A stretch of 64,000 bases of DNA from Escarpia spicata (taxonomy: Eukaryota; Annelida; Polychaeta; Sabellida; Siboglinidae). The stretch's first letter is position 1. Each line of letters opens with the position of its first letter. Where the stretch lies: the NCBI GenBank assembly GCA_963995525.1, contig OZ023209.1:31300635-31364634 (forward strand), given 5' to 3'. This document shows, in pieces, positions 4,826-57,800 of this stretch. The position numbers and the translations under genes are program-made. Below the pieces are notes generated by a model. That model ran no database searches. It saw only the letters and a program-made list of their open reading frames with translations, and was not told the origin of the DNA.

Positions 4826-4909
<84 letters not shown>

Positions 4910-4911: not shown

Positions 4912-5289
4912 TTGACAAGCGCCGTCACAGCACGAGCGCGTTGTTTCCACCCTCGGGTGAACAGGTACGCGGGGGTATTTTTGGATTTGTTCCTTTCTTC
5001 TTTGACGGGGTGCGACGGGCCAGGGATAGCCGGGAGCCACCCCTTTTGGGGGAGTCGGGGGTGAATGCATTGAACAATCCGCGGTCGGGTTATCAATCAT
5101 AACGCCGGATAGGAGATATCGGCGGCGATAAGATCTCGGTGACGGGTGATTAGGGTCATCGTGTGACAAGGCGTCTCACACCTGACGTGCCACCGCCATC
5201 ACGGGTGAGTCGAGTTAGTGCGTCACCCAGCCGTCAACCCCCGGGCCCGTCCAGTCGACGTCACCCACGTCAAAGCAGTTTTACCTTCT

Positions 5290-5600: not shown

Positions 5601-5989
5601 TACTGTTTAACAAATAACACAGACACATGATATTGTAAATGGACCCCCGTGGTGTATAGACCCCCTGTGAAAAATATACTTTTTAATGTGTTGAGTGAGA
5701 TGTAAATGGTTCACTTGTGTATGATTGCACATGCTACAACAAAACACAACATGAATGAAAATGTGTCAAACGTTACTGATCCGCGGCCAGCGGGATGACA
5801 ACAGCAGTTGCAGCTTTCATGATAGGAAGAACCGCTGCATCATTCCTCAAACAAGCCTCAATGCCAAGAACATGAAAATTCAGCACACGATGAGCGTCAG
5901 TGTGAAGATCGCCTCATCGGCTAGCTTTTACAGTCCATCTTCGCTTCCCACTACTGATGTGGTAGACACAACTGCGAAGCGCAAAGCTG

Positions 5990-21425: not shown

Positions 21426-22620
21426 ACTAAGGGATGTAGTTTATCAGCTAAACAGTGTAGTTTATAAGCTAAACAGTGTTGTTTGTCATCAGTTTGGTCC
21501 TTTCGGCGCCGATCTCCATTCCGTATGCTGTAGAGGCTTTGTCAAGGCACTCCACCAAGTTGACTAGTTCTTGTTGTTCTCCTGCTAGGCCGCCGATATC
21601 ATCAGCGAAGCGAAGGTTAGTGATTGCCCTGCCTCCAATGCTGATAGTGCCTTGATGGTTTTCCAAGGCATCATCCTCATCTCGATCCTGTCCAGAAAGA
21701 GGGTGGGTGATAGTAGGCATCATTGTCGAACTCCCAAAGTTGTTCGAAACCTATGTTGTCATTGAAGATGACTGCACTGGTGGCCTTGTCATATAGGTGT
21801 TCAATGGTTCGGACAAGATTGGAGCCAATGTTGTACTTCTTCATGGTCGACCATGGGGCTGCATGCCATACGCTACCAAAGGCCTTCTTAAAATCTATGA
21901 AGACATGGTACAGGCTTTGCTGATGTTGAAGATGTTTCCTATAAGGATTCTAAGGTTGAAGATCTGTTTACAGGTGCTCCATCCTGTTCGAAAATCCACC
22001 TGTTCTTCTGTGATGATCTTTTCTGCCTGGGGTTTGAGTCTGTTCAGTAGGATCATCAGCATGACTTTGTTCGGGTGACTGATGAGGTTCTATAATTTTG
22101 GCACAGCTGTAGGTTGCCTTTCTTGGGAAGCGTGATGATCAATGACTGGGTCCATGGAGTGGGTCATTCTCCTGTCTGCCAGATCTTGTTGCAAATTGTT
22201 GTGAGGGTGGTGATCAAGGCTTCTCCCCCAGCTTGAACCAGTTCTGCTGGTATGTTGTCAAGTACAGCTGACGTTCCTTTTTCCAGAGATTTCACTGCCG
22301 CCTCCACTTCCTCACGGAGAATGGGGTAGTCGTCCTCTTCGGTGGTCAGTGGACAATTTAGCACCGCTGGGTCTCCGGTGGTCTTGTAATTGTACAGTTC
22401 TGAGCAGTATTCTGTCCATCAGTTGGGAATCTTTTGTTCTTCTGTAAGGCATTTCCCTGATTTGTCTTGTATGGTGATGGTTATCCCTGTCTTCACTGAT
22501 GTCAGGTTTTTCACAACTTGGTAGGCCTTGTTGTTGTTGTTCTTGCACAGACTGTTTTCAATTTCCCAACATTGTTCTGCTATCCACTCACCTTTTGCTC
22601 TTCTCACATCTTGTCTGATA

Positions 22621-23093
22621 ATAACAACATAAATAATAATTAGATAACTGCTTTTTCGCCTAAATCCTCGGAAATCAAACTCGGGGACACCAAGACAAAG
22701 AGTAGACTATGGCGACAGAGCACTGTGATCCGGCTACTGGTGAACGGCCTCATCCCAAGTGAAGTCCATTGGTAGATGTCACTGCACAGAGATCGTGGTC
22801 GCAGAGCCGCTGTAACAGTTTCTCTCCCCAGATATCTCCCCCGTCACCCATTATTTACCCTCTTCCCCGTACCACAGCTGTCTTCAATCCACAAATTGCT
22901 GCAAGCCAATTTAATTAAACCCCACAAATAGAAGCAAGGATCACTTGTCTACCGTTAATCTAATCACACACTGTATATATCTTATGTTGCTTATTAATCA
23001 TATTGGTACGGGGGAAGATATACAAGGAGGGAGATATATCCCATAAGGAATCTCTCTCTATGGAAGAAATACTTCTCCCGAACATTTTTCTTT
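22621..23093. other. Diverged repeat fragment, otherwise unassigned
   Basis: The first ~100 bp match the (TAA)n-tailed repeat described at 20845. No coding signal in the remainder. Confidence 0.4.
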
Positions 23094-27949: not shown

Positions 27950-29115
27950 ACCAATAGGCAATATAGGCAAGTGCCTAGTGCCCACGAAGGCCAGGAGGCC
28001 CACGAAAATATCCAAGCATTTTTTCTCGTGGCCGAATATTCCCGAAACCCAACTACTTTCTTACTCCATCGACCATGGTCCTCCACTGTTGTTGGTTTGG
28101 TGCCATTTTCTCAATATCTTTCCAGGTTTTCCCCATCTGCTTTCTTTCGCCTTCCGTGTCTCTCTGCCAGGTGTCTCTCGGCCTTCCTCTTCTTCTCTTC
28201 CCTGGGGGGTTCCGTGTCATTGCTTGTCGTGTGGTGTTTGTTGCTGGTTTCCTCAGTGTATGTCCTAACCACTTCCATTTTCTCTTCTTTATTTCGTTTT
28301 CTATTGGCAGTTGTTTAGTCCATTCCCATAGTGTAGTGTTGGGTCCCTTGTCTGACCACTTTAGGTGTATGATTCTGCGCACGCGTTTGTTGATGAAAGT
28401 CTGTAATCTTTTAGTGTTTTTCTGTATAATTCGCCATGTCTCTGAGCCATATAATAACTTGACTTGATATTAGAGTTGAATATCCTCAATTTAGTGTTAA
28501 GCTTGATTTGTTTTGCCTTCCAAATGTTTCTCAACATTATGAATGCCACTTTTGCTGTTTGTATCCTTGCTTTGATGTCTTCTTCTGTGCCTCCACTCTT
28601 GCTTCTGTTGATATTGTGTCCTATCTGTATTGACACTGTGTTTAGAAGTTATGTTTTCTCCTGCATCTGTTGGTGACTGTGGGACAGGAGAGCGAGGTCA
28701 TCTTTGCCTCGCTCCGGTCTTCACCATAAATGAGTATGTCAGTTGTTCTGCCTTCGTAGTTACTTTGTATCAGAGAAATCTGTCTTTACAGAAGCCTGCC
28801 TGATGATCTGTCTGGCGTCCACTGCTGTTTTCAGTCTGTCCAATATGACTCTGTTAAGGATCTTTCCGGGTACTGACAGGAGCATTATCCCTCTAGTTTT
28901 TTGTATTCTTGCAGGTCTCGTTTCTTTGGGATTTTCACCAGGTATCCTTCTTTCTATTCAGTCGGTATTTCTTCTTGATCCCAGGTCTTTTTAATCCGAC
29001 CATGCAGTATCTATGTGGAGGTCTCCACGTCTGCCTTGATTTCCTTGGCAGGAATTTCATCTAGGCCAGAAACTTTCTCTCACGTCAGGTGATGAATGGC
29101 TTTCTCTGCCATGCA
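27950..29115 (-). mobile_element. Non-LTR retrotransposon relic with internal deletion
   Basis: On the minus strand, from 29.1 kb downward: EKVSGLDEIPAKEIKADVET, then broken RT motifs. The frame then passes from QTQQ-like RT sequence directly to GRTTDILIYGED, which corresponds to the YADD catalytic region, indicating loss of the segment between them. It continues with INRSKSGGTEEDIKARIQTA, LRNIWKAKQIKLNTKLRIFN, then KKRKWKWLGHTLRKP and GKRRRGRPRDTWQRDTE. The end (GRPR..W) is typical of the C-terminus of RTE/Ingi-type LINEs. Several frameshifts; inactive. Confidence 0.8.
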
Positions 29116-30721: not shown

Positions 30722-33700
30722 TCAGGTGCCTTGAGTGATCTGTAGTGTGTCCAGCATGCCACTGACTGCGTCCATTTGATTTGACCCCGAGTCTGACATG
30801 GGCAATTCCTGCAGCAAACATTGACAGTGAAATGTAACATTTTTGACACAAAATGTGATGCTTAGTTGTTGTTGCTAGTTGTGAGTTGAATTAATAGGTA
30901 AATGGAGGCCTGCTAATCACAACTACAATCTTGATAAAATACAAACCTAAGGCCAGTGAGTTCAAAAACATAATGGCATTAATAAATAAAATAATAACGT
31001 TTAAAATAATATAATCACATATGAGAGTGAAAAGAAGAATGTAAAAATTATATTAAGACAGACACACTCGAGTTGAGAGTGAGAGAGGAGCTGCTCCATT
31101 CTGGAGTTGCTACCTGTATCAAGTGACACACCTTATATTTGAGAGAGATCTGCTGGGCTGCCCATGCTGCGTACTTTATAGCATCTTTCTTTGACTTGGC
31201 GTTTGTCTTTTGTGATGATGCAATTGTACTCGCCGTCTGAAACAGAGAACACTAGTAATAGTAATAATAAGTTTAATAGTAATAAGTTTATTTTCCTTGG
31301 CAGCCATTGAGGCACAACGTCTCCCTCCGGTCTGCCAGCGTTGGTAGTCTCGCTGTGGTGATGGCTTCATCGTAACACACGTCATGGAATATCCGCATAG
31401 CTCGTCTCTGGATACTTTCCAGCTGCTTGGTTTGCCTTTTCGTTAAGCTCGTATGCCACACCTGGCAGGCATATTCAAGGACTGATCGGATTAGTGTTGT
31501 ATATATGTTGACGAGATGATGGGGTTCGACTCCTGCTCGCTTGAGCAGGATTATGAAATATAGTCTATGACGATACCTGTATATGGGTGGTGTCGGCGTA
31601 TGTAGTCTAGTGACTGGTCGATGTAATTTAGCATTGCCCAATCATCTGACCCGGGAGGATGATATATGGTTCCAATTGTCATTTGTGGGTGGTCGCGAGG
31701 CATCTTTGGTGGGCGTATAGTTATCCACAATGTTTCTAGCTCAGGTTGATTTAGTTCGGGCCAATATTTGCTTGGAATCGAGTCTCGAACGTAGCAGGCT
31801 ATACCTCTGTGTTGGCAGCCGTCTTGTCTGTCTCTCCGGTAGATATTGAAACCGGACAGCGAGAGCGGGCCGTCTGGTATGCTGCTGGTGCACCACGTTT
31901 CTGTTATAGCTATAACGTCTACCCCGTAGTTGTCCTTTATCACTTTAATTTCATCCAGTTTACTAGACAGCGCTCCGCGGATGTTTGTATTGATTATCGT
32001 TGGAAGGGCCCATTTATTTGTTTGAACACATCAGATTTCTACCGTCAGCACCAGTTCCACAAATGTTCGATTCATTGTTGTTGTTCGATTCATTGTTGTT
32101 GTTATTGTGTGTGGGTGGTCGATGACCGATCACGGTGAGTATTCGGTGTTGTTTACGTCCGCCTCGGCACCCGCGCTTGGTAGAAGGTCTCGCAGCAATG
32201 CCAAGTTTACATAACACTGTCCACGTACTGGCATCCAATCTTGACTTGATAGAATGTCTGCATTGAGCCAGTTGACAAATAGTGTAGGTGTAGAAGGCTT
32301 GGACCAGTTCTGTCATGCTTGACCAGGTACAGCCAATTGACACTGTCACTGAAGCGTGAAGGCCGATCTGCAGGCTGGTTGGGTGTGTCTCTGGTTCTGG
32401 TAGTGGTCGAGCCTGACTGATCATTAGTTCAGCAAGGCAATGTCATAAAACCATTAAAAACTCACATATATGTCGCATTTGCATAAAATTGTCTGCGAAT
32501 TGTAGTCCACGTATATTCAAAAATCACGTCTGGTAAACAATACGTGTATCAGATAGCCACAACTTGTAATAAATCAGATGTTATACAGCACTTGCAGAGT
32601 GCAGCCACATCGGCGCAATACAACACACTGGGTAATCTACCTTGTGGTGCTGTCACAACTACGAACTCGTGATAGGTATCTATGCCAAGGCATGCACCAA
32701 CACTGCATCTATGCCAAGGCATGCACCAACACTGCATCTATGCCAAGGCATGCACCAACACTGCATCTATGCCAAGGCATGCACCAACACTGCATCTATG
32801 CCAAGGCATGCACCAACACTGCAGCTATGCCAAGGCATGCACCAACACTGCAGCTATACCAAGGCATGCACCAACACTGCATGTATGCCAAGGCATGCAC
32901 CAACACTGCAGCTATGCCAAGGCATGCACCAACACTGCAGCTATGCCTAGGCATGCACCAACACTGCAGCTATGCCTAGGCATGCACCAACACTGCATCT
33001 ATGCCAAGGCATGCACCAACACTGCATCTGTGTATCACCACAAAGTGTATCGGTTTGTATGAACTCAAAACATAAACAAATTGTCAACTTAAGAAGAACG
33101 TACACTTATAAAAGTCAAACCATTAAACTATAATTTTATTAGCTTTCATTTGATATATAGTTCTTTATGCCTGTTGGTGAACAAAGTATAACAAATACAA
33201 AATGAACAATGACAAAAACATGAAATCATTGAGTCTGCAGTGAATTTGCTTGGGAACTATGAGGCTTATTCGAGACAGGTCTCTTGGATAGAGTCAATAG
33301 AGGTACAACAGTTCTTTACTACAGTGTTACTCATTTAAAGGTATTAATGAAGGTGAAATTATACATCATACATTATACAGACTGGCTCAAAGAAACACTG
33401 TCTCTGTCATCTGACTGTTGGGTGACTCACCAGAAAGAGACCAAACAGGGCACGCATGTTGGTGGGGTTGAGTTTGATGGCCTGTGCGAAGTATTTGCAC
33501 GCATACTCCATGTTGTCTTGGCCCCCCTGCGTGTACTTCACCTGCAAGTAACACCCTCGTTACTACCCCTCAAGGGGTGTACAACAAAACACCCCCATCA
33601 TGCCATCAGTTTTTACTTTCTACCGTTGCCATTGTTACAGCACCATAGAATACAATTGTATAAATATGGTGCTGTAGAATTCAATTTAGATTTACAAACA

Positions 33701-36700
33701 GTTACATAATTCTGGCAACTGTAGCAGCAAACACAGCACAAGAAAAAGGACCTAATATACTTGATGATGTTCTAGCAACTTTGTATGCTTCTGTTCTTCA
33801 CAAATTATTAATAGAGTCCCGGAGCTTCCAACATTCACATGCATTCAGTTGTGCTAAGTAGGAAGTTAAACTACAGATGCACTGTCAAACCTGGGCATCA
33901 AGTGGATTGCTGCTAAGGGGACAAAATGAAAGCAACACTACAAATATGACATAACATAAAATAAATGTTTCCAAATACTGATGTTGGCACTATACTCGCA
34001 AGTTGACATTGTCATGTTATAGGCATAAACAACCATAAAATGGAACAAAGATACACAATGTTTACTTTCATATTGCACATGTCTTTCTCTGAACACCCGA
34101 CTATTAAATTATGCTAAAATAACGTAAAGGTAAGTATTTCTACAACGCAGTATCCAGTCCTTACGACTGCTCAAAATACCTTTATACTTTACTCCCTGGC
34201 AGACCTGTTTAATCGAACACCATCTCAATTGATCTGGGAAGAATTCACCCTCTCTGCAAAGACTAAATATATCCACCACTGTCTATAGCCAAGTACTCAT
34301 TCATACAGCCGAGTGAACTGGAGCAACATAGAATGAACGAACTTGCCCAAGGTTCGACATTCCCAGGATTCGAACCCGGGTTCTCTTGAATGAGAGTCCA
34401 ATGTTCTAGCCACTGCATCACTAACTGTGCCAGTCTCACCTCTGCATACTTCTGGTGAAAGAGATGGTTGCGGGGGTTGGAGAGGATCAGCTCCTCAATA
34501 CAGAATGCTGCCTTGCTGTAGTCCTGCTCTGTCAGGTACAAGTCACACAACTCCATCCAACTGTCAGTGTCACTCATGAACCTACAACCGTCAGGTACAA
34601 GTCACACAATTCCATCCAACTGTCGGTGTCACTCATGAACCTACAACGTCAGGTACAAGTCACAACTACATCCAATTGTAAGGTACAAGTCGCACCCCAA
34701 TCCAACTGTTAGGTACAAGTCACACAACTCCATCCAACTGTCAGAATCACTCATGAACCTTCAACTGTCAGGTACAAGTCACAACTACATCCAACTATCA
34801 GGTACAAGTTGCAACCTCATCCAACTGTCAGGTACAAGTTGCAACCTCATCCAACTGTCAGGTACAACTCACACAATTCCATCCAACTATCAGTGTCACT
34901 CATAAACCTACAACCGTCAGGTACAAGTCGCAACCCCATCCAACTGTCAGTGTCACTCATGAACCTACAACTGTCAGGTACAAGTCACAACTCCATCCAA
35001 CTGTCAGGTACAAGTCGCAACCCCATCCAATTGTCAGGTACAAGTCACAACTCCATCCAACTGTCAGGTACAAGTCGCAACCCCATCCAACTGTCAGGTA
35101 CAAGTCGCAACCCCATCCAACTGTCAGGTACAAGTCACAACTCCATCCAACTGTCGGGTACAAATTACACAATTCCATTCAACTATCACTGAATATATAA
35201 AACAATTTTGTTTAGTTTGAGTTATTACTGTTTAAAAATTACACGTGTATTAAATGGCAATAACTGAGAATGGAAACAAAAATCGCTGGGTATCCAGAAA
35301 CGTATTTATAGATTATAGAAAAACATTAAATCCCCACATGTCGAGTTGTCCATGTTAATACATGGGTTCCTTAATATGTGTCTGTTTGTTTAATGTTACT
35401 AAATTGTTTTAAATAATAAATTGCAGCATATGTATGCTTAGCACCGAGTAAAGACGTGATATATAACAGAAGACCCAGTCTTTGAGGTAGTCATTGAGTC
35501 AAGAGAAGAGATATGTAAGAGTAGAACCCACTGTTTGAGGTAGTCATTGAGTCAAGAGATGAGATATGTAAGAGAAGACCCACTGTTTGAGGTAGTCATT
35601 GAGTCAAGAGATGTGATATGTAAGAGAAGAACCCACTGTTTGAGGTAGTTATTGAGTTAAGAGATGTGATATGTAAGAGAAGAACCCACTCTTTGAGTTC
35701 AGAGATGTGATAGTCGCACCCCAATCCAACTGTTAGGTACAAGTCACACAACTCCATCCAACTGTCAGAATCACTCATGAACCTTCAACTGTCAGGTACA
35801 AGTCACAACTACATCCAACTGTCAGGTACAACTCACACAACTCCATCCAACTGTCAGGTACAAATTACACAATTCCATTCAACTATCACTGAATATATAA
35901 AACAATTTTGTTTAGTTTGAGTTATTACTGTTTAAAAATTACACGTGTATTAAATGGCAATAACTGAGAATGGAAACAAAAATCGCTGGGTATCCAGAAA
36001 CGTTTTTATAGATTATAGAAAAACATTAAATCCCCACATGTCGAGTTGTCCATGTTAATACATGGGTTCCTTAATATGTGTCTGTTTGTTTAATGTTACT
36101 AAATTGTTTTAAATAATAAATTGCAGCATATGTATGCTTAGCACCGAGTAAAGACGTGATATATAACAGAAGACCCAGTCTTTGAGGTAGTCATTGAGTC
36201 AAGAGAAGAGATATGTAAGAGTAGAACCCACTGTTTGAGGTAGTCATTGAGTCAAGAGATGTGATATGCAAGAGAAGAACGCACTCTTTGAGGTAGTCAT
36301 TGAGTCAAGAGATGTGATATGTAAGAGAAGAACGCACTGTTTGAGGTAATCATTGAGTTAAGAGATGTGATATGTAAGAGAAGACCCACTCTTTGAGGTA
36401 ATCATCGAGTCAACAGATGTGATATGTAAGAGAAGACCCACTCTTTGAGGTAGTCATTGAGTCAAGAGATGTGATATGCAAGAGAAGAACGCACTCTAAG
36501 GTAGTCATTGAGTTAAGAGATGTGATATGTAAGAGTAGAACCCACTGTTTGAGGTAGTCATTGAGTCAAGAGATGTGATATGCAAGAGAAGAACGCACTC
36601 GTTGAGGTAGTCATTGAGTCAAGAGATGTGATATGTAAGAGAAGAATGCACTGTTTGAGGTAATCATTGAGTTAAGAGATGTGATATGTAAGAGAAGACC

Positions 36701-39700
36701 CACTCTTTGAGGTAGTCATTGAGTCAAGAGAAGTGATATGTAAGAGAAGACCCACTCTTTGAGGTAATCATCGAGTCAACAGATGTGATATGTAAGAGAA
36801 GACCCACTCTTTGAGGTAGTCATTGAGTCAAGAGATGTGATATGCAAGAGAAGAACGCACTCTAAGGTAGTCATTGAGTTAAGAGATGTGATATGTAAGA
36901 GTAGAACCCACTGTTTGAGGTAGTCATTGAGTCAAGAGATGTGATATGCAAGAGAAGAACGCACTCTTTGAGGTAGTCATTGAGTCAAGAGATGTGATAT
37001 GCAAGAGAAGAACGCACTCTAAGGTAGTCATTGAGTCCAGAGATGTGATATGTAAGAGAAGAACCCACTGTTTGAGGTAGTCATTGAGTTAAGAGATGTG
37101 ATATGTAAGAGAAGAACCCACTGTTTGAGGTAGTCATTGAGTCAAGAGATGTGATATATAAGAGAAGAACCCACTCTTTGAGGTAGTCATTGAGTCAAGA
37201 GAAGTGATATGTAAGAGAAGAACCCACTGTTTGAGGTAGTCATTGAGTTCAGAGATGTGATATGTAAGAGAAGAATGCACTCTTTGAGGTAGTTGTTGAG
37301 TTAAGGCCAGACACCCCAGGTGAAATGGTGTTTTTTGACAAAAAATACTGAAAATGATTCTCTGCCAGATTATTATACCTTTGTATGCATACTATCTATA
37401 AAGTTCACTTCTATGACAATTACGAGGAGAGATATGGCAGCTAGATAGGAATTTTTTTTTTAATTCACAATTAATGCAATGTTTTGTGCCCAAGATGTAG
37501 AGTGTCTTATTGAATAAAATATATATGAATTTTGTTTGTGCCAGACTCCCCGTTTCCTTGGCAACAATCAAAGATGCCTGTCGGAGAGGGAAAATATAGC
37601 ATACCGGTAATTTGGAAACATTGCAGCTCCTCCAATAATGCAGTAATCAGTGTAATTCTTTTAGTTCTTATTTACAACACATCACGCTATGCAATGACGA
37701 AGATATATGTTTTGTATTGTAATTATTTAATGTTTAAAGGATATGTTTAAATTTTGATGGTAAAGAAATACATACTTTTTATTACGATCAGTATGTTCAG
37801 CATATAACTAAAAACTAAATATGTCCTTGTCATTGCTTAAAGAAGTTAGCAAGGATCACATCAGTAAAAATTTCATTAATGTAGCATCATTACTTCTTTT
37901 TAGCACATGACAGAAGCATACTTTATCCATGAACATAAGTTACTTAGAGGTATGTTAATGTTATAAGAGTTCTTTATTAATAGTAAACATAAAACGGTAT
38001 CAAAATACAGAAGAATCACATTTTGAGTATTTTTTCAAAAAATGTAATTTTAGCTGCAGTGTCTCTCCTTAAGAGGTGTGATATGTAAGAGAAGAACCCA
38101 CTCTTTGAGGTAGTCATTTAGTCAAGAGATGAGATATGTAAGAGAAGACCCACTCTTTGAGGTAGTCATTGAGTTAAGAGGTGTGATATGTAAGAGAAGA
38201 ACCCACTCTTTGAGGAAGTCATTGAGTTAAGAGGTGTGATATGTAAGAGAAGACCCACTCTTTGAGGCAGTCATTGAGTTAAGAGGTGTGATATGTAAGA
38301 GAAGAACCCACTGTTTGAGGTAGTCATTTAGTCAAGAGATGAGATGTAAGAGAAGAACCCACTCTTTGAGGCAGTCATTGAGTTAAGAGGTGTGATATGT
38401 AAGAGAAGAACCCACTCTTTGAGGTAGTCATTTAGTCAAGAGATGAGATGTAAGAGAAGAACCCACTCTTTGAGGCAGTCATTGAGTTAAGAGGTGTGAT
38501 ATGTAAGAGAAGAACCCACTGTTTGAGGTAGTCATTTAGTCAAGAGATGAGATGTAAGAGAAGAACCCACTCTTTGAGGCAGTCATTGAGTTAAGAGGTG
38601 TGATATGTAAGAGAAGAACCCACTGTTTGAGGTAGTCATTTAGTCAAGAGATGAGATGTAAGAGAAGAACCCACTCTTTGAGGCAGTCATTGAGTTAAGA
38701 GGTGTGATATGTAAGAGAAGAACCCACTGTTTGAGGTAGTCATTTAGTCAAGAGATGAGATGTAAGAGAAGAACCCACTCTTTGAGGCAGTCATTGAGTT
38801 AAGAGGTGTGATATGTAAGAGAAGAACCCACTGTTTGAGGTAGTCATTTAGTCAAGAGATGAGATGTAAGAGAAGAACCCACTCTTTGAGGCAGTCATTG
38901 AGTTAAGAGGTGTGATATGTAAGAGAAGAACCCACTCTTTGAGGTAGTCATTTAGTCAAGAGATGAGATGTAAGAGAAGAACCCACTCTTTGAGGCAGTC
39001 ATTGAGTTAAGAGGTGTGATATGTAAGAGAAGAACCCACTGTTTGAGGTAGTCATTTAGTCAAGAGATGAGATGTAAGAGAAGAACCCACTCTTTGAGGC
39101 AGTCATTGAGTTAAGAGGTGTGATATGTAAGAGAAGAACCCACTGTTTGAGGTAGTCATTTAGTCAAGAGATGAGATGTAAGAGAAGAACCCACTCTTTG
39201 AGGCAGTCATTGAGTTAAGAGGTGTGATATGTAAGAGAAGAACCCACTGTTTGAGGTAGTCATTTAGTCAAGAGATGAGATGTAAGAGAAGAACCCACTC
39301 TTTGAGGCAGTCATTGAGTTAAGAGGTGTGATATGTAAGAGAAGAACCCACTCTTTGAGGTAGTCATTTAGTCAAGAGATGAGATGTAAGAGAAGAACCC
39401 ACTCTTTGAGGCAGTCATTGAGTTAAGAGGTGTGATATGTAAGAGAAGAACCCACTGTTTGAGGTAGTCATTTAGTCAAGAGATGAGATGTAAGAGAAGA
39501 ACCCACTCTTTGAGGCAGTCATTGAGTTAAGAGGTGTGATATGTAAGAGAAGAACCCACTGTTTGAGGTAGTCATTGAGTTAAGAGGTGTGATATGTAAG
39601 AGAAGAACCCACTCTTTGAGGAAGTCATTGAGTTAAGAGGTGTAATATGTAAAAGAACCCACTCTTTGAGGAAGTCATTGAGTTAAGAGGTGTGATATGT

Positions 39701-42700
39701 AAGAGAAGACCCACTCTTTGAGGAAGTCATTGAGTTAAGAGGTGTGATATGTAAGAGAAGAACCCACTCTTTGAGGTAGTCATTTAGTCAAGAGATGAGA
39801 TATGTAAGAGAAGAAACCACTCTTTGAGGCAGTCATTGAGTTAAGAGGTGTGATATGTAAGAGAAGAACCCACTCTTTGAGGTAGTCATTTAGTCAAGAG
39901 ATGAGATATGTAAGAGAAGACCCACTCTTTGAGGTAGTCATTGAGTTAAGAGGTGTGATATGTAAGAGAAGAACCCACTCTTTGAGGAAGTCATTGAGTT
40001 AAGAGGTGTGATATGTAAGAGAAGAACCCACACTTTGAGGAAGTCATTGAGTTAAGAGGTGTGATATGTAAGAGAAGACCCACTCTTTGAGGCAGTCATT
40101 GAGTTAAGAGGTGTGATATGTAAGAGAATACCCACTCTTTGAGGAAGTCATTGAGTTAAGAGGTGTGATATGTAAGAGAAGAACCCACTCTTTGAGGTAG
40201 TCATTGAGTTAAGAGGTGTGATATGTAAGAGAAGACCCACTGTTTGAGGTAGTCATGTAGTCATTGAGTTAAGAGGTGTGATATGTAAGAGAATACCCAC
40301 TCTTTGAGGTAGTCATTGAGTTAAGCGATGTGATATGTAAGAGAAGACCCACTGTTTGAGGTAGTCATGTAGTCATTGAGTTAAGAGGTGTGATATGTAA
40401 GAGAATACCCACTCTTTGAGGTAGTCATTGAGTTAAGAGATGTGATATGTAAGAGAAGACCCACTCTTTGAGGTAGTCATGTAGTCATTGAGTTAAGAGG
40501 TGTGATATGTAAGAGAAGACCCACTCTTTGAGGTAGTCATTGAGTTAAGAGATGTGATATGTAAGAGAAGAACCCACTCTTTGAGGTAGTCATTGAGTTC
40601 CTTGATGGCCTCTGGGATCTTGTTCTGTTCCTTCAGCACTGACACTACCCGCTTCCGCACCAGCTAAACACATGACAATGTTAACATGTTTGACATCAAT
40701 GTCATCGACAAGCACATTGCTGACATGTTATCGGGAAATACAACATTGACAAGAGCCCTATCTACATGGCGTTTTTAAGGCTCGGCTGTGCTAATGTTGT
40801 CGGATAGCCTGGGTTATGTCGTAGTGTCAGGACTCCACTACTTCTGCAAGATGCTTCAGATTTAACCTGGGGTAAATTATGCTTCGTGTAGACGCTAGAC
40901 AGGTTTAACCAAGGCTAAAATAGCTCGAGTTAACTTTAACCCAGGTTAAAACTTCATATGTGTAGACAACAATTGTCTTAATTCATCAGTCAACAACTCA
41001 GATGTCTATGACTTATCGGTTCAAAGAGACTCATTAGAGGCGCAAAAGGGAAACATTATCAAAAGTTTACAATAGTATATTTCAATAAATATAACTGTTC
41101 ACCAAAGAACTTCTCTGTACTTTTTGACCAACATAGCTGAGACTTTATTACAGACACATGACTGGGTCCAATTATGTCATTACAATTGAATTACAGTTTG
41201 AAAATCAAGATTTTCTTACAAGACCTACTAGTACTCAAATAAATCTTTACAAGGGCATCAGAAAAATGCCTTCGTCTTTACTACTCAAATACAATCTGTT
41301 TTCTGCACAACTGTAGTAGAAAGCATGTAGAAAATTTAATAAGTTGAAATGAAAATTGATTTGGATACATATAACTAGACCCAGCCATGATGCAAATGTA
41401 ATAATAATTTAAATCGTACACTGTTCGTTGGGTCGTCTTTAAGCATTTCTTTGTAGATTTCCATGGCACCTTCATAGCTGAAATATGACCAACCATAACC
41501 ACATTCAACCAGGCTGGAATGCACAAAGTGTCACATTTCAAATATTCATGTAGCATTCATTTCATATGAACAAATAACAATTTATATATACGAACATTAG
41601 CAAGAAGGTTTGTACAGAGGACTGCAGGCACCAAGTGATCCAGTTGGAATATAATGCAGCTCCGGGGTTGATTCCACATCAACGTTTCCGATTCCAACTA
41701 ACTTTTCTGATTCCACCCGTACTACAGCAATTCCAAAACATTTGTTTGATTCTGATTCCACCCACACTTTGCCGATTCCCATTTTTTTACCCGATTCCAC
41801 TAAATATTAACATTTATATATAGATGTACAAGTTATAGGCATTTTTGTTTCTTTGGAAACCTTCTACGATGTCAGCTAGTTGAAACTGTAGCCTGTAGCT
41901 TTCTGTCTCATATACTGCTAATATGAAGACACTGTACTGGGACAGCTTGTTGTTAGACTTGCGAGATAAACTGGCTGCGTTGTTAGACTTGCGAGATAAA
42001 CTGGCTGTGTTGTTAGACTTGTGAGATAAACTGGCTGTGTTGTTAGACTTGTGAGATAAACTGGCTGTGTTGTGACTCACTTGTCTTCTGACTCGAGTAG
42101 AAGACCCTCAAGTCTGTGTACACGACAACTGGTTGGGAACTGTCTATTGAGGGCCTGGATACAAAACTACAACACAACAAGACAACTGTGACAGTGATGG
42201 ATGGATGGATGGATGGATACAGAGCTACAACATACAAGACAAATATCTGAAGAATGTCAGTCATAGGTGTTGTCAGTTATATGTCCACATAAGACTTCTT
42301 TCCACACCACTGGCTTCTATATGGTAATAATCCAACTGTGGGCGCAGTAAGACAGTATCTCCTCCCATGTGTTCTACTCGCCACTTTGTAGTTATTAGGA
42401 ATGACTGATGTACCCTTTGCTTGCTGCTGCTGGCGGGTCACTCTCCAGAGGGCTCCACTGCGATTTTACACAGTAATATTTGCGTGCCATAATTGGCCAT
42501 TGCAGAAATGAAAATGCCAGCAAAAACAAGTTAGATATGCAAAATAAGAAATGGTTATAACTGGCTTATTCCTCTGTGAACTGTTAACAATAGCGCTAAG
42601 ACACACAACCATGTACATACCTCAGCTAGGCGGCACTGGTGGCAGTCGCACGCTGCTATACACACTTGCTCATAGATGATCCACACTACATCACAGTTGC

Positions 42701-44067: not shown

Positions 44068-47000
44068 ATGATTCCACCAAATGCTTCGTTGGTGAAATAT
44101 GACAACCCGGTGCTCGTCAGTAGAAACACAGACAAGAAAACTCCGCGGGTACGGCCAACGATAAGTTTTAAAATGTAAAACTATTAAAAAAGTTGCATAC
44201 GTCGGCCGATGCCGTTGTCTGTCAGTAGTGGACACTAGCATCATGTTAACGCCTAAATAATTACTGTGAATAACTGATATTTACTATTTCGCTACAGCAT
44301 GATCTATTCAGCCACCTTTTAATAATTCATACTTATATCACATAATATACTTCTACGTGGTTAATCAGCATAATCCATAGGGATTTTGACGCCGATGTGT
44401 GTGTGTATAATATATGCAATTGTGCAGTGCCAGATGTGAAGGTGCGAAAAAAAAGTATATACAAAGTGCGAGTAAAAACCGACCAGGGCTTAGAAGTGTG
44501 AATCAACCGCACCCGTGAAGGCCTGGATGGTTGGAGCTACAAACACTCTCCCGGGAGGGTGTTCCACCAGAAGACAGTGCGTGGGAAGAAAGAATTGCTG
44601 TAGACCTGAATGCGAGCTGGGATAATCTGATATTTATTTGGATGGTAATATCTTGTACTGGTGGAGAGCATTAGGGCAAGGTAGTGGTTACCATTGATGA
44701 CAATCTGTTGGTTGTGTCCTGTGGTTGACACTTTACAAGACATGCTTAAACTTCCGGACCTTCTTTAGATTAAACTGTAATTATATTTTTTGTCTTTGGG
44801 AGTAGAATGATTGCAAAGAAGTCAGATGCCCAGGGAGTGGAAAAGAAAAGGAGGTGATGACAACCTAGACAGCAGTGGAGCATTGTGTAAAGAGATATTT
44901 GGAGGAATTGGGAGAGGAGTGGAGAATGAGAATGAAAGATAGATGGGAATGGAGACGGTTGGTGGAGACAGCAGTAAAAGATCTGGGGAAAAGAAAACAG
45001 AAATCGAGGATCAGTTTCGAGGCCAGCCTCACCCCAGACATACAGGGAAGTATGAGAACAACGATTCATTCAATGTGTTGTTTCGTAGGCCCGAGCTCTG
45101 AAGGTGAGTCCCCAGCAGCCGATTGGTGCTGGCCCTGTGCCTAGTCCACCCGCCAAGCAGAAGGTGGCAACAACAGATGCCAAGGCCGCTCAACAAACGG
45201 ATGAAATACTCAACTCCATACTGCCTCCACGGTACAGTTCCCTCAACAGCAACACTCAGTTGAAGTGTATCTATCTGTGTTTGTAATGTCCTACCATTAG
45301 TTGATTACAAGTGCTTAGTTTAATCACTGAAAAATAAAAACTTAGTACTAATGCAAGAGGGTAGCTAGTAGCATAAGTACAAATGGACACAAGATATAAA
45401 CATGAAAATATAATCGTGACATTTGAGATTTATTTTAATCAAATTCATGAACTCCAACAAACCATGTCAGATAAATAACATACACACTGCACATGCATGC
45501 ATACACACTCACACCACACATACACACACACCACACACATACACACACCACACACATACACACACAAACATAGACACATGTATGACTCCGTGAGTGACCT
45601 CTGTGACAGGGAGTGGACAGAAAGCGGTCAGTTGTGGGTGCAGCAGGTGTCCAGCACACCGGCGACCCGGCTCGATGTGGTCAACCTGCAGGAGGAGCTT
45701 GACCGGCGGCTACAGCAGCGCCAGGCGCGGGAGACTGGCATCTGTCCGGTCAGACGGGAACTCTACTCACAGTGCTTTGGTACGTCCACACGCTTCTCTT
45801 TAATGATTCATAATTTTATTATTAGTTGCTGCTTTTATTGATGTTTTGTTAACAATCTATGGGCATTTTCAGCTTGAATGCTTCATGAAGTAATAGGTTT
45901 TATTGTGTCGAAAACGTAATGTTGTAGACCTACCATCATGTCTTTTTAGTGGCTCCAGCATTCACAACACACTGCACAATATCTTCACTTTGTGTAGTAT
46001 TTGATGTATTTCAGTTACTAGTAAAATTACAGTTTTGTATAAACAAAGTTAGATAATTATCGTGTTTATTGCAATAACTGGATAATCTTGGTTTTTAATT
46101 AACCATGTTTATAACGTAGACTACTGAAAATATACATTATTAAAGTTTAATATTATCTTGTCACCATCAAACAATATTCATCTCGAAACATCATGAATAA
46201 AGTTGTCAACACTCGGTCTGATACTACTCATAACTCATTAATTAAAAAGATCTAACTGACCTTTCCTTCAGATTACAACATTCCATCCTTGTGCACTATG
46301 GGGTGCTGCTAATTACATAAGTCTCAGCACCCCCTGACAGATGAATTATAGTTGGAATGCCCCACTGCCTGAATGCACCACTACCTGAATGCACAAAACC
46401 TAGTTGCAATGCTCCAACGGCGTAGTCACAATGCTACAACGGTCTGGTTGCAATGCACCACTTTTGGTCAGAATGCCCCACTGATTGTAAAATTGTCAAA
46501 CCTTTGCATATATATAGATAATACAATTGTATATATTAAAACTTTAAATATTAAATGCATAATTAATATAGAAATAACATGTTTCGTTGACTTGTTGTAC
46601 GTCCTTAAAAGTAAACTATGTTTTGTCTTCGTATACATGTGTATGATTGTATTACATAACCTATCATTAAATATCGATTACATATTGTCCTTTAATGTGT
46701 AGAAGTCATGTAGTAATAACCTAATAGGCATCCGGCTCATGCGTTGAGCAGATCTTTTACGTTGGTTGTTTTGGATGTGTGCCCACACTAATTGGCTAGC
46801 TACTCTGGCATTGTTTTATTGAGCATGTCGGTTTGTTTGAATAACGGCAATTTACCAAAAAGATTGTGCAACGTACATTGAAATAAAGCTTTTGACATCA
46901 AAGACATCTAATTTATGTTGGTTTGGACAGCGGGTTGAATACGGGGAGGGACTACATATATATATACCTTTATTATATTATTATATTACGATATCAACCA

Positions 47001-49455
47001 TAACACAATAAAGGTATATATATATATGTAGTCCCTCCCCGTATATATATATATACATACATACATATATAGTAATATACGCAGTCGCGTGGGCGATACT
47101 TAAAGAAGTTATTATACTAGCCGACTTGCCCGGGGAAAAACTAACAAACCAACAAATAAACAGAGAAACCATAATGTTTTATAATATATAAATACCATAA
47201 GAGGTGCATTGCGCCAAACCATTGGAGCATTGCGACCAGGCGGCTGGGGCATTGCGACCAGGCGGTTGGGGCAATGCGACCACGCGGTTGGAGCATTGCG
47301 ACTAGGCAGTTGGTGCATTGCGACTGGTGCATTCAGGCAGAGGTGCATTCCGACCATTACCCTGACAGATCGCCTTGCAAACCTCTGAAGATAAGCTCAG
47401 CCAATGATATCATTTTCTGGGAAGGTCTGGTGGTCTTCATTTCAGCCACACCCTTGCTGCGTTACATGCATGTAATATTAAGGAAGTAGACGTAATTATT
47501 TGTATACACAATGTGTTGGCTCGTGAGAATGGTCAAATGGGTATTTAAAGTGGGATTTCCGGAAGTCATGGACTTCATCTTGGAATTGGAGCACGGGTCA
47601 GACGGGTGTCTGTACTGTTGGCTTGTGAGGATGCAACATGTACCTAAACCTGTGTTTCACTGACAGACGAACTGATCCGCCAAGTGACCATCAACTGTGC
47701 CGAGCGAGGTTTGCTGTTGCTGCGAGTCCGGGATGAGATCCGTATGACGATCGCTGCCTACCAAACCCTGTATGAAAGCAGTGTGGCTTTTGGCATGCGC
47801 AAGGCACTGCAGGCGGAACAGGGCAAGGCAGACACAGAGCGCAAGGCAAGTCTACGTCTCACGTATTCTGTGTCTTTGATAAGCTTCCTATTTAAATTTT
47901 GGTTTATTTAGATTGTACAATGTAAATGAAATGGTGTACATTTAACACTCTTAATACCAGCAAATGTTTTTTCTGAAAATAAATAAACATTATGGAATGA
48001 CCATCATGAAACTAGCCAATAGTGAAATTAATCCTGAACTGTCTGAGGATGATTTTAATATACTTGAAATATTTACGGATTTGGAAAAGTAATAAATTTC
48101 AGGTCAGGGTTTGACAGTAATTCCTTCTGTATGGTTGTGCTTTGTGTTGAAACCTTACTGGCTGTGTGTCCAACAGATCCAAGAACTGGAGCAGGACAAG
48201 CGAGACTTGGAGCGACAAGTAAACGAACTGAAGGCAAAATGCGAGCAGATCGAAAAGCGCGCGCAAGAACAGCGTCAAGTGGAGGAGAAGAAACACACAG
48301 AGGAGATTCAGTTCCTCAAGAGAACCAACCAGCAACTCAAGGTACAAGATATATATTCAACGACTCAGTGTAGATGTTTTTGATATGAGCCCCGCTTCTG
48401 CAAACCGGATATTAAGTCGCATAGAACTAGTTTGCATATGAGCCAAAACAGCTGCCATGCTCCATCAGTTTAGTGATTCTGGTAGAAATGCATACCTAAT
48501 CTTGTCACCTTTCAATGTCCAGTTTAATATACTTGACAAATAAACAAACAATAATAAAATACCTGCATTTACAAACTCATTCATTAACAGACAATGGAAA
48601 ATATGAGACAAAATGACCTAGTTTGTCAAAATGTTGCTTTTTAAAAGTTTGCTTCAATTTTAAGAACACATAAACAACTATTGAAGATATATCAACAAAT
48701 AAGATATCATTTTAAAGTTAACAATCTGCGGAATCCAAAAAAGTACAAAACTCCATTTTACAATGTTGCAACTTGATACCTGCTTTGCTGTGGTGGCAGG
48801 TCACCATGTGTGTAGGCAAACCAATTAGCAACTCAAAGTAGGATGTTCAGTTGTTCAAGAACTCGCTGCAGATGGTTCAGTTTGTTCACAAAATATAATC
48901 AGTAACTCGAAGAAAACAGTCCAGTTATTGAAGTTATTATCAAGAAAACAATCTGTACCTCAAGTTAGGTTCAATTCTTCAAGATGAACGCTGTGTGGAT
49001 GATTCAGTTTGTCACGAGAAATAAGCAGTAAGTCAAAAAAGGAGGTTCACTTCCTTAATGATGCAATGTAGATGGTTAAATTTTTAAAGAAAACCAAACA
49101 GGAGTAGGATGGCCAATTTTCCTAGGAGTCGATGTAGATGGTTAATTTGATCAAGAAACCTAATTAATAACTCAAAGGAGGAGGTTTATTTCTTCAACAA
49201 TGCAATGTAGATAGGTCATTTTGTTAAGAAAACAACAACATGCTTTTTACAACTCAAAAAAGCATGTTCAGTTGTTCAGAACTAACCAAAATAGAAGGCC
49301 CAAGGAAGGAGGCTTGGATCTTTTATGACTCGATCAATAACTGTTAGTAGCATTTTATTTTGGATGGTGAGAGAGAAACCAATTCCTGCAACATGTGACC
49401 AAATGTTGTTCTGTTTCAGACTCAACTGGAAGGAATAATTGCACCAAAGAAGTAG
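44068..49455 (+). CDS. DNALI1: Axonemal dynein light intermediate chain, p28 family, 6 exons, 257 aa
   Basis: This protein binds the single-headed inner-arm dyneins of motile cilia and flagella and is needed for their assembly and beating. Exons: 44068-44148, 45089-45231, 45610-45779, 47667-47845, 48177-48341, 49420-49455; phases join throughout. The start MIPPNASLVKYDNPVLVSRN matches the family's N-terminus. The conserved block includes LWVQQVSSTPATRLDVVNLQ (residues 81-100), ICPVRRELYSQCFDELIRQV, NCAERGLLLLRVRDEIRMTI and YQTLYESSVAFGMRKALQAE. A Glu/Lys/Gln-rich coiled coil occupies about residues 175-246, ending TQLEGIIAPKK. Length is as expected (~255-260 aa). Intron 4 uses a GC donor (AAG|GCAAGT). 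Head to head with EMC2. Confidence 0.97.
44525..44745 (-). mobile_element. LINE 3' coding tail in DNALI1 intron 1
   Basis: The minus strand reads STRYYHPNKYQIIPARIQVY, then SNSFFPRTVFWWNTLPGECL and a stop at 44537. 'SFFPRTxxxWNxLP' is the C-terminal signature of CR1/Jockey-type reverse transcriptase ORFs. Only this tail remains. Confidence 0.75.
46332..47370. mobile_element. 1.0-kb non-autonomous DNA transposon with iterated long inverted repeats
   Basis: The 11-bp sequence CCCTGACAGAT flanks the element at 46332-46342 and 47360-47370, a likely target-site duplication. The two ends (about 46343-46490 and 47205-47359) are inverted relative to one another, and each is built of ~22-bp iterations of GTCGCAATGCNCCAACNGCNTG. 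The right end has about six iterations, the left about four. The interior is AT-rich with a strong hairpin and no coding sequence. The 9-11 bp duplication is compatible with a Mutator-like origin, but the superfamily is unproven. Confidence 0.7.
46941..47042. repeat. Long hairpin with ~34-bp arms
   Basis: ACGGGGAGGGACTACATATA ... CCTTTATT (46941-46973) is the reverse complement of AATAAAGG ... GTAGTCCCTCCCCGT (47008-47042) with essentially no mismatch; the loop is about 34 nt. It lies inside the 1.0-kb element. Confidence 0.9.
48505..48800 (+). repeat. Unclassified interspersed repeat, copy 1 (DNALI1 intron 5)
   Basis: Shares collinear blocks with 55985-56275 in HMGCL: CAATGTCCAGTTTA, GCATTTACAAA, GTTGCTTCAATTTTA, CTACTGAAGATAT, and CAACTT...ACTTTGCTGT. 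The copies are diverged (about 70-75% by eye). No coding, tRNA-like head or terminal repeats recognised. Confidence 0.65.
48815..49275 (+). repeat. Degenerate ~74-bp tandem repeat derived from the DNALI1 exon 5 end
   Basis: About six diverged units, each following the pattern GATTCAGTTTGTCAAGAAAA, CCAA-CAG-AACTCAA, GGAGGTTCACTTCTTCAA, GATGCAATGTAGATG. The same order is found across the exon 5 donor (GATTCAGTTCCTCAAGAGAA, CCAACCAGCAACTCAAG|GTAC, then TTCAACGACTCAGTGTAGAT). Each unit thus copies about 36 nt of exon and 38 nt of intron. Drift has removed most donor GTs. The array starts about 470 bp downstream of the exon. Confidence 0.65.
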
Positions 49456-53533: not shown

Positions 53534-54670
53534 CTATAGATTAGACTTTGCTTTAGCCTGGCCAACCTTGGACTGAGTTGATCGTCGTAAAGCCTCAGAT
53601 ATGAAATGTCCGGTGGAAATCACTTTGTCTATGTTGATTCCCTGCAAGGAGAATATGTGAACCTCACCAACATCATTCAGCTGTAACAGGCATTTAATCT
53701 GGGAGTAAAAACAAACATCACTACTATTCACGTCCACATATATTTGTATTTCTATGATGAGATATGTGATACACCCCAAGTACTAATAAACATTCATAAC
53801 ACAGATCCTCTGAACTGTGAAGATATCAGACTAACAGTATGTTTAAAAATGGCTTTACATGTGCATATGATGAAAACCTATCAATCCTGTGGATTAAAGA
53901 ATGCCACAGGGATGTTGCATACAATAATAGTGCTATAAAATAAAAAATGGCATCACCCAACCCGCTTAACTATATAAAATCAGATAGTATCAGCTTGTCA
54001 CAAAAATCACTGTCAAAAGTAACTATTCATTAATGCCGACTGATGCACAATTTAACAGCTAAGCCTTATCACTGAGACAGCGCATACTCCCGTGTCCTCA
54101 ATGATCATACATATGTAAAAACCTTCAGATAAAAACAATAACTATCTGCATGTTTTGATGACCAACTGCCGACATCAGCCCATATATACATGTATCAACT
54201 ATGTATTTGTTTGCTAATGTTTTTATACATATTTAAAACATATATGTCTCTCAATATGTCTCCAGACATTAAAGAGCTCACTGGTAGTTCAGATAAGGTC
54301 ATACAAGTGCTAATTTCAAGTAATCCCCATGAATATACATTAGCTTAGACTATGTCTCTAGGAAGTACTTCCCCTGCCCACTGCCTTGTGTCAGTGGGGT
54401 ACTCACAGTTTTGATGCCAAGGCCATGTAGGAGGTAGACAACGTCTTCGGTGGATACGTTCCCACTGGCTCCCTTCGCGTACGGACAACCTCCCAGTCCC
54501 GCCACCGAACTGTCCACAGCTGCCACTCCCATCTGGGGGAACAGGGACAAAGTTTAGGTATCCCTTCTCTTGCTATCACTCAGGGGGTGTATAGAAACTT
54601 CAGCATTTAACAGGCTACATGGATGCGCTTGAAATAACTTTCTTTGTGCGTGGTGATTTTAGTTACACAA

Positions 54671-54711
<41 letters not shown>

Positions 54712-54761
54712 TGTGTGATGTGTGTGTGTGTGGTGTGTGTGTGTGTGTGTGGTGTGTGTGT

Positions 54762-54820
<59 letters not shown>

Positions 54821-57800
54821 GTGGTGTGCGGGAAGATATCCATAAAACTATAAGGTAAAGGTTACTTGTCATACATGGCAGCTAACGTGTATGCTACACC
54901 ATGAGGTAATGCCACAAAACCTACCTGGAGGGCAGCAAAGATGTTAGCAATGGCCTGGCCGTAGGTGTCGTGACAGTGGATGCCTAGCTTGTCAGCCGGG
55001 ACCAACTTCACAACCTCTGTCAACATCGTCTTAATCACCCCGGGGGTTGCAACACCGATCGTGTCCCCCAGAGAGATCTCGTAGCACCCCATGTCATACA
55101 GCGTCTTAGCAATCTGAATGATTGATTGAAAGTTTATCCAACAACAACAACATAATATTATTATCAGGATAAATTTGTAAAGCACCATGTATCCGGGTTA
55201 AAACCCTGTTCAAAGGCACAAACAATATAAGCTAAATAAATACAAAATTTGTGTGAAATATGGTATGCTGCTGCTGCTGAAGGTACATAGCTGAAGCCAT
55301 ACGACTTATAAGGTGTTACGTCATTGATGAACTAAAAAAATGAATAAATACAATACAAATTAAAACATAAAATACAAATTAACATTCACAATTCTTTTAT
55401 AAACTGATTACAATCTAGCAGCTGTGGCCTTTGTGAGGCACAGACAAGGCTGAAACATTCATGCATGAATACATATAAAAACATGTCTAAAACATTTTAA
55501 ACAAATATGATAACAAATAAATATGATTATTTATATATATATATACACACACACCTAGTCATCACACTGCACACCTCCATACTGCTTACGTGATCCGACA
55601 AACGCCTGAGTTTATAGGAGTACTGGACATTTTTGAATGGCAAAGGTTGATATACATAAATATACATAGCTTAGGATAAAAATTATGACTGCACCTTGGA
55701 AGAATACACAGGTCGGTTGAAGCTAGAAAGGCAAAACTGACCAACCTGAGCAACTTTGACCGGGTCCACAGTGCCTTCGTATGGACAGCCGACTGTACAG
55801 GAGATGTAGCTGAAACATGGAGATGGCGAGACATGGAGACACAGCAGAGGTGAACACATGTGACACGCCACAGCAAATCAAGTAGTAAATGACACAGGCC
55901 TGTTCTGCAGACGAGCCAAATATAGTTGTCCACGTCATGTCCCATCAATTTTTTGATTTTGGCAGAAACGTACGCCTTTTAGTATCATCTCTCAATGTCC
56001 AGTTTATTTCCCTCGATAAACAATCCCAAACTAGTAAAATACAGGCATTTACAAAGATATTAAAAATATATAGACAATACGAGTTAAAACTATCTCTTTT
56101 CTCAAGATGTCGCTTTTAAATTGTTGCTTCAATTTTAGCAATAAACAAAAACTACTGAAGATATTTCAAGAAGTTATGTATCATTTAAAAACTTATGGTC
56201 TATGAAATACTGAGGTGCAAAATTCCATGTCACAATTTTGCAACTTAGTACCCACTTTGCTGTAACAGATCACACATAGAAGATGGGTAGACGACCATAT
56301 CGACATCCACACAAACAACAGAACTCAAAGGGTCCACAGTTTCTCCTGAAGCCACTTTCATGTTTTGTATATATGGAGGAAATGGTCAAATTATATTTAA
56401 ACAAAGATTAATCTTTTAAGAATTTAATAAACTATATTAATATCACCGTACAGTAACATGAATTAATGTCCTGGTTTAATAGGTAATGTTATTAACCCTC
56501 ACACTGTGTCACAGAAGATACTCAGACAGAGTGAGACTTGTATGAGAGAGTGAAATATATAATTCATTTTACATAATTTTCCTTCAGGAAATACAAATAG
56601 CTGCTGATTTCCAAAGATGCCCCTAGTCATCACAGAGCACACCTGCACAATTATTTTACCATTCTTTCGTAAGAAATATTCTTCGTTATTTACCTGTGTT
56701 AATAGCACTGACCATTATAAAATACTTTCATAATTTTGTTATGATAATGTCAAATATATTAGTTTTATGTAGGTAGCAACTGATCTTCCAGTGTTTCACT
56801 CTTATGAAACAAGACAATGGATCTGCACGTGACATTGAAAGAGAAACCAACCCTCTGACTGGGATATCTGCCTCCTTCGCTGCTGAGAGTATCTCCCTAG
56901 CCCTCTGTAACCCTTCCTCTATGGAACAGTTTGTGTTCTTCCTAAAAACAACAAATACACTGAGAGTATGAACATATCGGGTACAGCCGTAAACATAACT
57001 CAGACGTTGTCATTTAACCTATTCAAACATGAGTCGAATCCCTAAAACTGGCGGATCTCTCCAAAAATGTCTTACCATATTGAATCAAAGACACAAGAAT
57101 AAGTATATAATACTAACGAATTATTCAAAGCCATGCATCCACACATATATTCTACAATACAATATTGCATATATAACATACATACTAAGCTCATCAACAC
57201 AATAAAGACAATACATGATAAATTAAACCAGCCTGCTTATGCGATACATATTTGTGCTTATCTCAATGTGGTTCGAATGAATGAATTCAGCTGTACATGC
57301 TGTAGAATACAACATTCACAAGTCCAATCTAATGGTCAATTTTCTACAATCTTAATCCTATGGCCAAAAACATCTGACTGAAAATTTGTGTCACAGCACC
57401 TACATCTACAGTAACAATATATGCTCCTTACAGCTGACAAAACTACACAAATTATTTTTCGGTAATACTGAATAACTCTTTTATGTAATTATTTGTTTCC
57501 AGTTTTATATAATTTTACATGTACATTTATGGTTTAAACTTTTAGGAAAATAAAATGTATAATTTACAAGGTTATCATGAATAAACAATGTTTATTATTA
57601 TTACAAAATGTGAACATAAATGAAAATGATTTGTGATAGGTTAAGTGGGATGCGAGTTCTAACTGACCGAGAGAAAGTCTCTGTGGCAGCCCCAAAGACT
57701 GCCACTTCCTGAGTTCCAGCAGTTCTCTGTAAATAAACATTTACAATTTTACATTAGCATGTCAATTATAATTCAACATTAAACTATATTCAATTAACTA

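Follow-up and report, generated by a model that had tools for sequence, protein, structure and literature searches.

The term 'mirages' has been used in amphioxus for tandem duplications of minisatellite type that straddle an exon and the adjoining intron, at 5' or at 3' boundaries, and repeat the splice signals in many of their units (PMC3087553, PMC3902484). Such arrays were noted in Adh3, in the globins BflGb6 and BflGb9 and in TnC, and PMC3902484, which counts Adh and TnC as mirages, likens PGBD5 to them. As described there, amphioxus mirages do not seem to disturb splicing (PMC3087553, PMC3902484), and it was proposed that junction repeats can seed new introns (PMC3087553). Multiple splice donors are supplied in human IFI6 (6-16, G1P3) by a minisatellite located where an exon ends (PMC4526556), and human segmental duplications contain variable internal tandem repeats at the borders of exons and introns, where they change the structure of genes and may give rise to introns (PMC2812944). 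The literature searched, which left out most subscription papers, yielded no account of arrays seeded on splice junctions in annelids; the intronic minisatellites of an earthworm metallothionein paper (PMC12783039) are described there without a stated tie to a splice junction. The present analysis concerns intron 6 of the EMC2 gene of the annelid Escarpia spicata, both ends of which carry arrays of this kind, in a stretch of 64,000 nucleotides (nt) of contig OZ023209.1 (positions 31,300,635 to 31,364,634; hereafter the window). A preliminary description of the window had held that there was no standard description of a minisatellite seeded on a splice donor, but the amphioxus mirages and the human IFI6 minisatellite were already in print. 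The arrangement is known as a kind, namely the mirage; new are the copy number, the involvement of both intron ends and the non-chordate host.

The likeness to amphioxus mirages was found in each structural feature tested. Thus, the EMC2 arrays span the exon/intron boundary, the authentic junction is the terminal unit and the splice signals are repeated in many units (GT in 73 of 75 donor units, AG in six acceptor copies). They differ from amphioxus mirages in their annelid host and in unit number, which is 75 on the donor side of EMC2 as opposed to 3–6 units of 150–160 base pairs (bp) in BflGb6 and 2–7 and 3–6 units in PGBD5 (PMC3087553, PMC3902484). Further differences are a higher-order dimer, an inserted transposon and the amplification of both ends of one intron from two different exons, a single intron of this type being absent from the amphioxus mirage descriptions consulted. 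EMC2 resembles human IFI6 in that a splice donor is repeated in a minisatellite where an exon ends. In IFI6, two of the downstream units serve as donors and give rise to isoforms (PMC4526556), whereas the EMC2 decoys all close the frame. The repeats in human segmental duplications are likewise minisatellites at exon-intron boundaries but, as reported, belong to young paralogues and are coding in half of the cases (PMC2812944), whereas EMC2 is conserved, was found once in the genome and carries its repeats in an intron.

EMC2 occupies the minus strand of the window in 10 exons which, joined across GT-AG introns, give an intact frame of 292 amino acids. Most exons were placed by tblastn with a human EMC2 query sequence, and the gene is completed by a short first coding exon at 43895 (MASSMTWEE), with which the numbering of exon 6 and intron 6 used in the preliminary description is right. 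The product contains the Pfam domain TPR_EMC2 (E 1.5e-24), and the closest proteins among the matches listed (120 of 485) were EMC2 of the vestimentiferans Ridgeia piscesae (90%) and Lamellibrachia satsuma (87%), each 292 amino acids long. A protein search of the organism's own 1.06-Gb genome with the EMC2 exons gave at least 8 matches, all at this locus, and no second EMC2 locus was found among these matches, the counts being lower bounds. Since the gene is conserved and intact and its exons were found at one locus only, correct splicing must be possible. Intron 6 is 5,996 nt long, of which donor units make up 65% and acceptor-side units 13% (together about 78%), and is bounded by the following features.

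40578..40663, minus strand: EMC2 exon 6, 86 nt, with its last 22 nt forming the exonic part of repeat unit one (intact joined frame).
First intron base 40577, minus strand: authentic donor of exon 6, AAGA/GTGGGT (GT-AG joined 292-amino-acid frame).
34440..34581, minus strand: EMC2 exon 7, 142 nt, with its first ~50 nt forming the last unit of the acceptor array.

The intron starts with tandem copies of the exon 6 end and its 5' splice site. Each donor unit of about 53 bp combines the 22 nt that end exon 6 with about 31 intronic nt that include the 5' splice site, and wrap-around alignment with a 53-nt unit, after removal of 4 fragments of fewer than 30 aligned columns, indicated 75 units in three blocks.

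38071..40599, minus strand: donor array D1, 48 units, the first being the real exon end (wrap-around alignment, Tandem Repeats Finder and lag identities).
36150..37302, minus strand: donor array D2 of 22 units, with greater divergence, GTGCGT in several units and no GT in the final one (wrap-around alignment).
35450..35697, minus strand: donor array D3, 5 units, the first partial and the final one without GT (wrap-around alignment).

The authentic junction is the terminal unit of this array, unit one being the exon 6 end. GT was present in all but two units, as GTGGGT in 63, GTGCGT in 7, GTGCAT in 2 and GTGGTT in 1. Compared with the exon 6 end, the 22 exonic nt of the 74 complete units were exact in 8 (one of which has an 8-nt insertion ignored by this count) and matched at 21 positions in 34, at 20 in 18, at 19 in 13 and at 18 in 1, while the last two exonic nt of all 75 units were GA in 51, CA in 23 and GT in 1. 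With up to 3 mismatches allowed, the 28-mer made up of exon end and donor occurred 67 times, as opposed to 0 in 100 dinucleotide shuffles. Spacing between units was 53 nt in 38 cases, 52 nt in 15, 51 nt in 15, 60 nt in 3 and 50 nt in 1, apart from the two gaps between blocks. Units 20 to 44 of D1 form a dimer of about 104 bp, with an identity of 99.3% at lag 2 and 85.5% at lag 1, a difference that indicates recent expansion; the near-identical dimers suggest recent turnover of the array in this one assembly. No other array locus was found when the genome was searched with array DNA, the matches, at least 11 in number, all lying at EMC2.

These results bear out the preliminary description in its principal claim, that the start of intron 6 consists of tandem copies of the exon 6 end and its 5' splice site, and in the claims that amplification affected the exon-intron junction itself, unit one being the authentic exon end (wrap-around alignment, intact joined frame), and that the 22-nt exonic match is common to most units (at least 18 of 22 nt in all 74 complete units by unit alignment). 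The interval that it gives, 38073-40663, covers exon 6 plus D1. Its figure was about 80 copies, as against 75 units by alignment, and its single transposon does interrupt the array, although D2 and D3 are also separated by a spacer and by repeats of exon 7 type.

The array at the 3' end of intron 6 was overlooked in that description. This second minisatellite copies the start of exon 7 together with its acceptor.

35715..35888, minus strand: first acceptor-side repeat block, with one acceptor copy at 35782.
34532..35188, minus strand: acceptor array of 57–59-nt and 30-nt units, with acceptor copies at 34964, 34907, 34758 and 34640 and the authentic one at 34581 (segmentation and acceptor scan).

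Long units of 57–59 nt contain 8 nt of intron (±1 nt) ending in AG and about 51 nt of exon 7, and short units of 30 nt contain the inner exonic part only. The sequence GTT(C/T)ATGAGTGA is preceded by AG in six copies, the last of which is the true acceptor at 34581, so that here also the authentic junction is the terminal unit. As the acceptor units are built from exon 7, the sequence before the true acceptor is itself exon-derived. A direct repeat, CTGACAG, occurs in exon 7 at offsets 14 and 46, and the short unit, at 30 nt, has nearly the length of the 32-nt interval from one of these words to the other, which makes slippage or unequal exchange between them a plausible seed. The 30-nt units are locally open, and the acceptor array was considered as a hidden coding exon; this was not supported, as a stop followed whichever of the five decoy acceptors was paired with the true donor.

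Two further features interrupt the repeats within intron 6.

37305..38068, minus strand: interspersed element inside the donor array, with TTAA on both sides and imperfect terminal inverted repeats over ~60 nt.
35889..36149, minus strand: non-repeat spacer, with a second copy at 35449-35189 through segmental duplication.

The interspersed element has the features tested for a piggyBac-like transposon, namely flanking TTAA, terminal inverted repeats and dispersed copies, and belongs to a family with 2,023 first-look candidates in the organism's own genome (40 scored, 76 matches listed). It therefore appears piggyBac-like and, judged by size, non-autonomous. It contains two AATAAA words. A segmental duplication of about 590 bp links 36300-35712 with 35599-35013 (560 of 592 columns identical, 94.6%) and contains the array end, the spacer and acceptor-side repeats; the two donor units without GT are copies of each other through this duplication.

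The outcome of decoy use was predicted from joined frames. With the true acceptor as partner, every one of the 72 GT decoy donors brought in a stop lying over 50 nt upstream of the last junction, after residue 172 in 71 cases and after residue 164 in 1. The preliminary description had predicted such stops correctly but had taken the unit length as not divisible by three; 26 of the 72 decoys add a length that is. Among 434 pairings of donor and acceptor with at least 60 nt between the sites, the only one open to the native stop was the outermost authentic pair, the other 433 being closed. Exon 6 would measure 139, 199, 251 or 311 nt with the first four decoys, compared with 86 nt for the authentic exon.

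Properties that might single out the true sites gave mostly negative results. Pairing of unit one with U1 (-5.7 kcal/mol) was equalled by 38 of the 74 other units, exceeded by 3 and not reached by 33. Thus, U1 pairing was rejected as a discriminator, 41 of 74 other units being as good as unit one or better, and the 'equivalent donors' of the preliminary description proved roughly right for U1 pairing. Relative to the 8 other donors of the gene, the authentic exon 6 donor was weaker in U1 pairing than 6, equal to 1 and stronger than 1, and 8.5% of 2,000 random GT 11-mers from the window paired equally well or better. Local RNA structure in three stretches (z 0.11, 1.42 and 0.85) did not discriminate, nor did pyrimidine content among the six acceptor copies (0.55–0.59). 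Position, in contrast, singles out the true sites, with which exons 6 and 7 measure 86 and 142 nt. Exon definition is thus the likeliest means by which they are chosen.

Comparison of the two parts of the donor unit gave no indication of coding constraint. Identity to unit one among the 74 complete units was 93.1% for the exonic half and 93.9% for the intronic half, and column diversity was 0.095 for exonic as against 0.064 for intronic positions. Since the halves are about equally identical and exonic columns are if anything more diverse, the copies appear to have been homogenised regardless of coding. Given the roughly equal divergence of the halves and the number of units that match or surpass unit one in U1 pairing, no selection is seen on the decoys. 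The arrays are taken as by-products of copying, in which neither the repeats nor their decoys would serve a function. Exon 6 ends in a codon for E here and for Q in Ridgeia EMC2, and an exchange of sequence between the array and the exon 6 end is possible.

We consider it likely that intron 6 is a near-neutral, two-sided mirage minisatellite that is spliced correctly by exon definition. The anatomy of the two arrays is as given above, and from it we infer the order and mechanism of their growth. One short tandem duplication would have arisen across the junction of exon 6 with intron 6 and another across that of intron 6 with exon 7, after which both arrays would have grown and been homogenised by slippage or unequal exchange blind to the border between coding and non-coding sequence, acquiring the two-unit higher-order repeat, the segmental duplication and the transposon. 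Splicing is probably restricted to the outermost donor and the outermost acceptor, as only the authentic exons 6 and 7 have full exonic context and would be favoured by exon definition, while products spliced at decoys would contain premature stops and be removed by nonsense-mediated decay. Some observations weigh against this explanation. Unit one is not the best U1 partner in its own array, donor units 2 to 11, which lie near the exon, all retain GT and show none of the decay that might be expected of a harmful site, and between two comparable donors the intron-proximal one was reported to be favoured (PMC6002489), which is the opposite of what EMC2 needs.

A functional role for the arrays was considered in several forms. 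They could act as a valve for regulated unproductive splicing, in which decoy use yields nonsense transcripts and tunes EMC2 expression in an amount set by array length or by the levels of splicing factors. The uniform outcome predicted for decoy use with the true acceptor, an early stop of the kind given above in 72 of 72 cases, and the weakness of the authentic donor relative to 6 of the 8 other EMC2 donors count in favour of such a valve, but the decoy donors show no constraint relative to the rest of the unit and the amphioxus mirages are described as not disturbing splicing (PMC3087553), so that a valve is judged unlikely. The roughly 70 donors could instead hold U1 small nuclear ribonucleoprotein (U1 snRNP), either as a sponge for it or as a platform that suppresses premature polyadenylation. 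Retention of GT in 73 of 75 units and the two AATAAA words in the transposon within the array fit this idea, and units placed 53 nt apart are further from one another than the U1 footprint of 23 + 12 nt (PMC6002489), so that simultaneous U1 binding would be possible. Against it, the donors are weak, as judged by the share of random GT 11-mers that pair equally well or better, the intron without its insert would need no such protection and evidence of selection was not seen; we regard this role as very unlikely. Suppression of premature polyadenylation by U1 snRNP is known as telescripting. Use of several donors to add in-frame repeat peptides, as protein variants of the IFI6 type, is suggested by the tandem donors at the exon end and by the 26 of 72 decoys that add a multiple of three, but all 433 pairings other than the authentic one are closed before the native stop, as are all 72 GT decoys when spliced to the true acceptor, and this explanation was rejected as scarcely credible.

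It was also considered whether the array or its copy number was misassembled. Tandem arrays are prone to assembly error, and dimers that are 99.3% identical could be over- or under-counted. In contrast, the units are individually diverged, the array is split by an interspersed element, the copy made by segmental duplication has an identity of 94.6% and the opposite boundary carries a second array, different in sequence. This is not the pattern of an artefact, which is highly improbable here, though the exact unit number may be wrong.

Recurrence was examined in the window and in a sample of the genome. Among 25 exon segments of the window tested for nearby copies (10 of EMC2, 6 of DNALI1 and 9 of HMGCL, two of the DNALI1/HMGCL segments being weak, E 0.29 and 0.057), only EMC2 exons 6 and 7 were positive. 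For the genome sample, tandem arrays were listed in 23 stretches of 10 kb (230 kb) chosen blind by position, the ends of 13 arrays were inspected and DNA around coding-looking ones, picked by eye, was read; because of this choice by eye, misses are likely. In stretch L019 (G000:C1:76800001-76810000), three 68-bp units at 963-1168 span a donor, each with GTATGT (GT at 1017, 1085 and 1153). A beta-trefoil lectin domain (PF00652, E 7.8e-9) was recognised when the exon was joined to the next one, neither exon reaching the cut-off by itself, and the array DNA was found once in the genome. One further junction array in the sample is thus supported.

Two other candidates rest on open frames only. L015 (8763-8985 of G000:C1:59200001-59210000, minus strand) has 5 units of 45 bp with AAG/GTTTGT in 4 of 5, and since the array is open in one frame, alternative donors would add steps of 15 amino acids, as in IFI6. 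L040 (2123-2470 of G000:C8:20000001-20010000) has 9.6 units of 36 bp with CAG/GTAA in 5 of 9 junctions by eye. No Pfam support was found for the candidate exons of L015 and L040, a match to TALPID3 (E 1.3) being below cut-off. Tandem CAGGTAAG triplets gave 887 matches genome-wide compared with 627 for the reversed control, a count per match whose listed part is dominated by a few long arrays. The L019 array and the two candidates suggest recurrence of junction arrays in the genome. The wider proposal, that junction-seeded minisatellites recur genome-wide at donors and acceptors, making this a second mirage lineage after lancelets, and exchange sequence with the authentic exon end, is put forward tentatively and is rather doubtful. 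If it were true, the codon at the end of exon 6 (E here, Q in Ridgeia) would drift with the array, a non-coding satellite thereby editing a conserved protein, and the double array would be an extreme natural test of a spliceosome that chooses the outermost of dozens of near-equal sites.

Other repeats were noted in these stretches and in the window. In the 36-bp units of L040, GTAAGG immediately follows a pyrimidine tract and CAG, which brings signals resembling an acceptor and a donor into contact, an arrangement like that of a recursive splice site. Further on, a 29-bp x 32 array at 4573-5612 extends to an apparent acceptor, with exons on open frames only. Within EMC2, a 30-bp x 4.2 array in intron 4 (41948-42073, minus strand) starts at the eighth intronic nt beside the exon 4 donor at 42081/42080, and ACAAGT, which resembles the exon 4 end ACAA/GTGAGT, is present in its units. 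Exon 4 had no significant copy in the exon-segment test of the window; therefore, this array abuts rather than clearly spans the donor. Minisatellites were also present in EMC2 intron 8 (29 bp x 12, 32678-33029, about 400 nt from the exon 8 donor) and at the window start (24 bp x 68, 1-1636). Similar 22-bp units with the core GGAGCATTGCGAC form short arrays at two unrelated places, 47222-47324 of the window and 1533-1614 of L017, and perhaps represent one dispersed repeat. The neighbouring genes, placed with human query sequences, are DNALI1-like (dynein light intermediate chain; 44068-49452, plus strand) and HMGCL-like (53546-63645, minus strand). Open frames at 21469-22706, 28053-28469 and 31288-32030 (minus strand) resemble, by eye, broken reverse-transcriptase/endonuclease pieces of retroelements without long terminal repeats (non-LTR).

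At EMC2, 73 similar donors and six similar acceptors compete in one intron, and protein comes from the outermost pair only. Intron 6 is thus a natural competition assay of exon definition against the intron-proximal rule. The locus extends junction minisatellites beyond chordates and provides a second lineage in which the proposal that such repeats seed introns (PMC3087553) may be tested.

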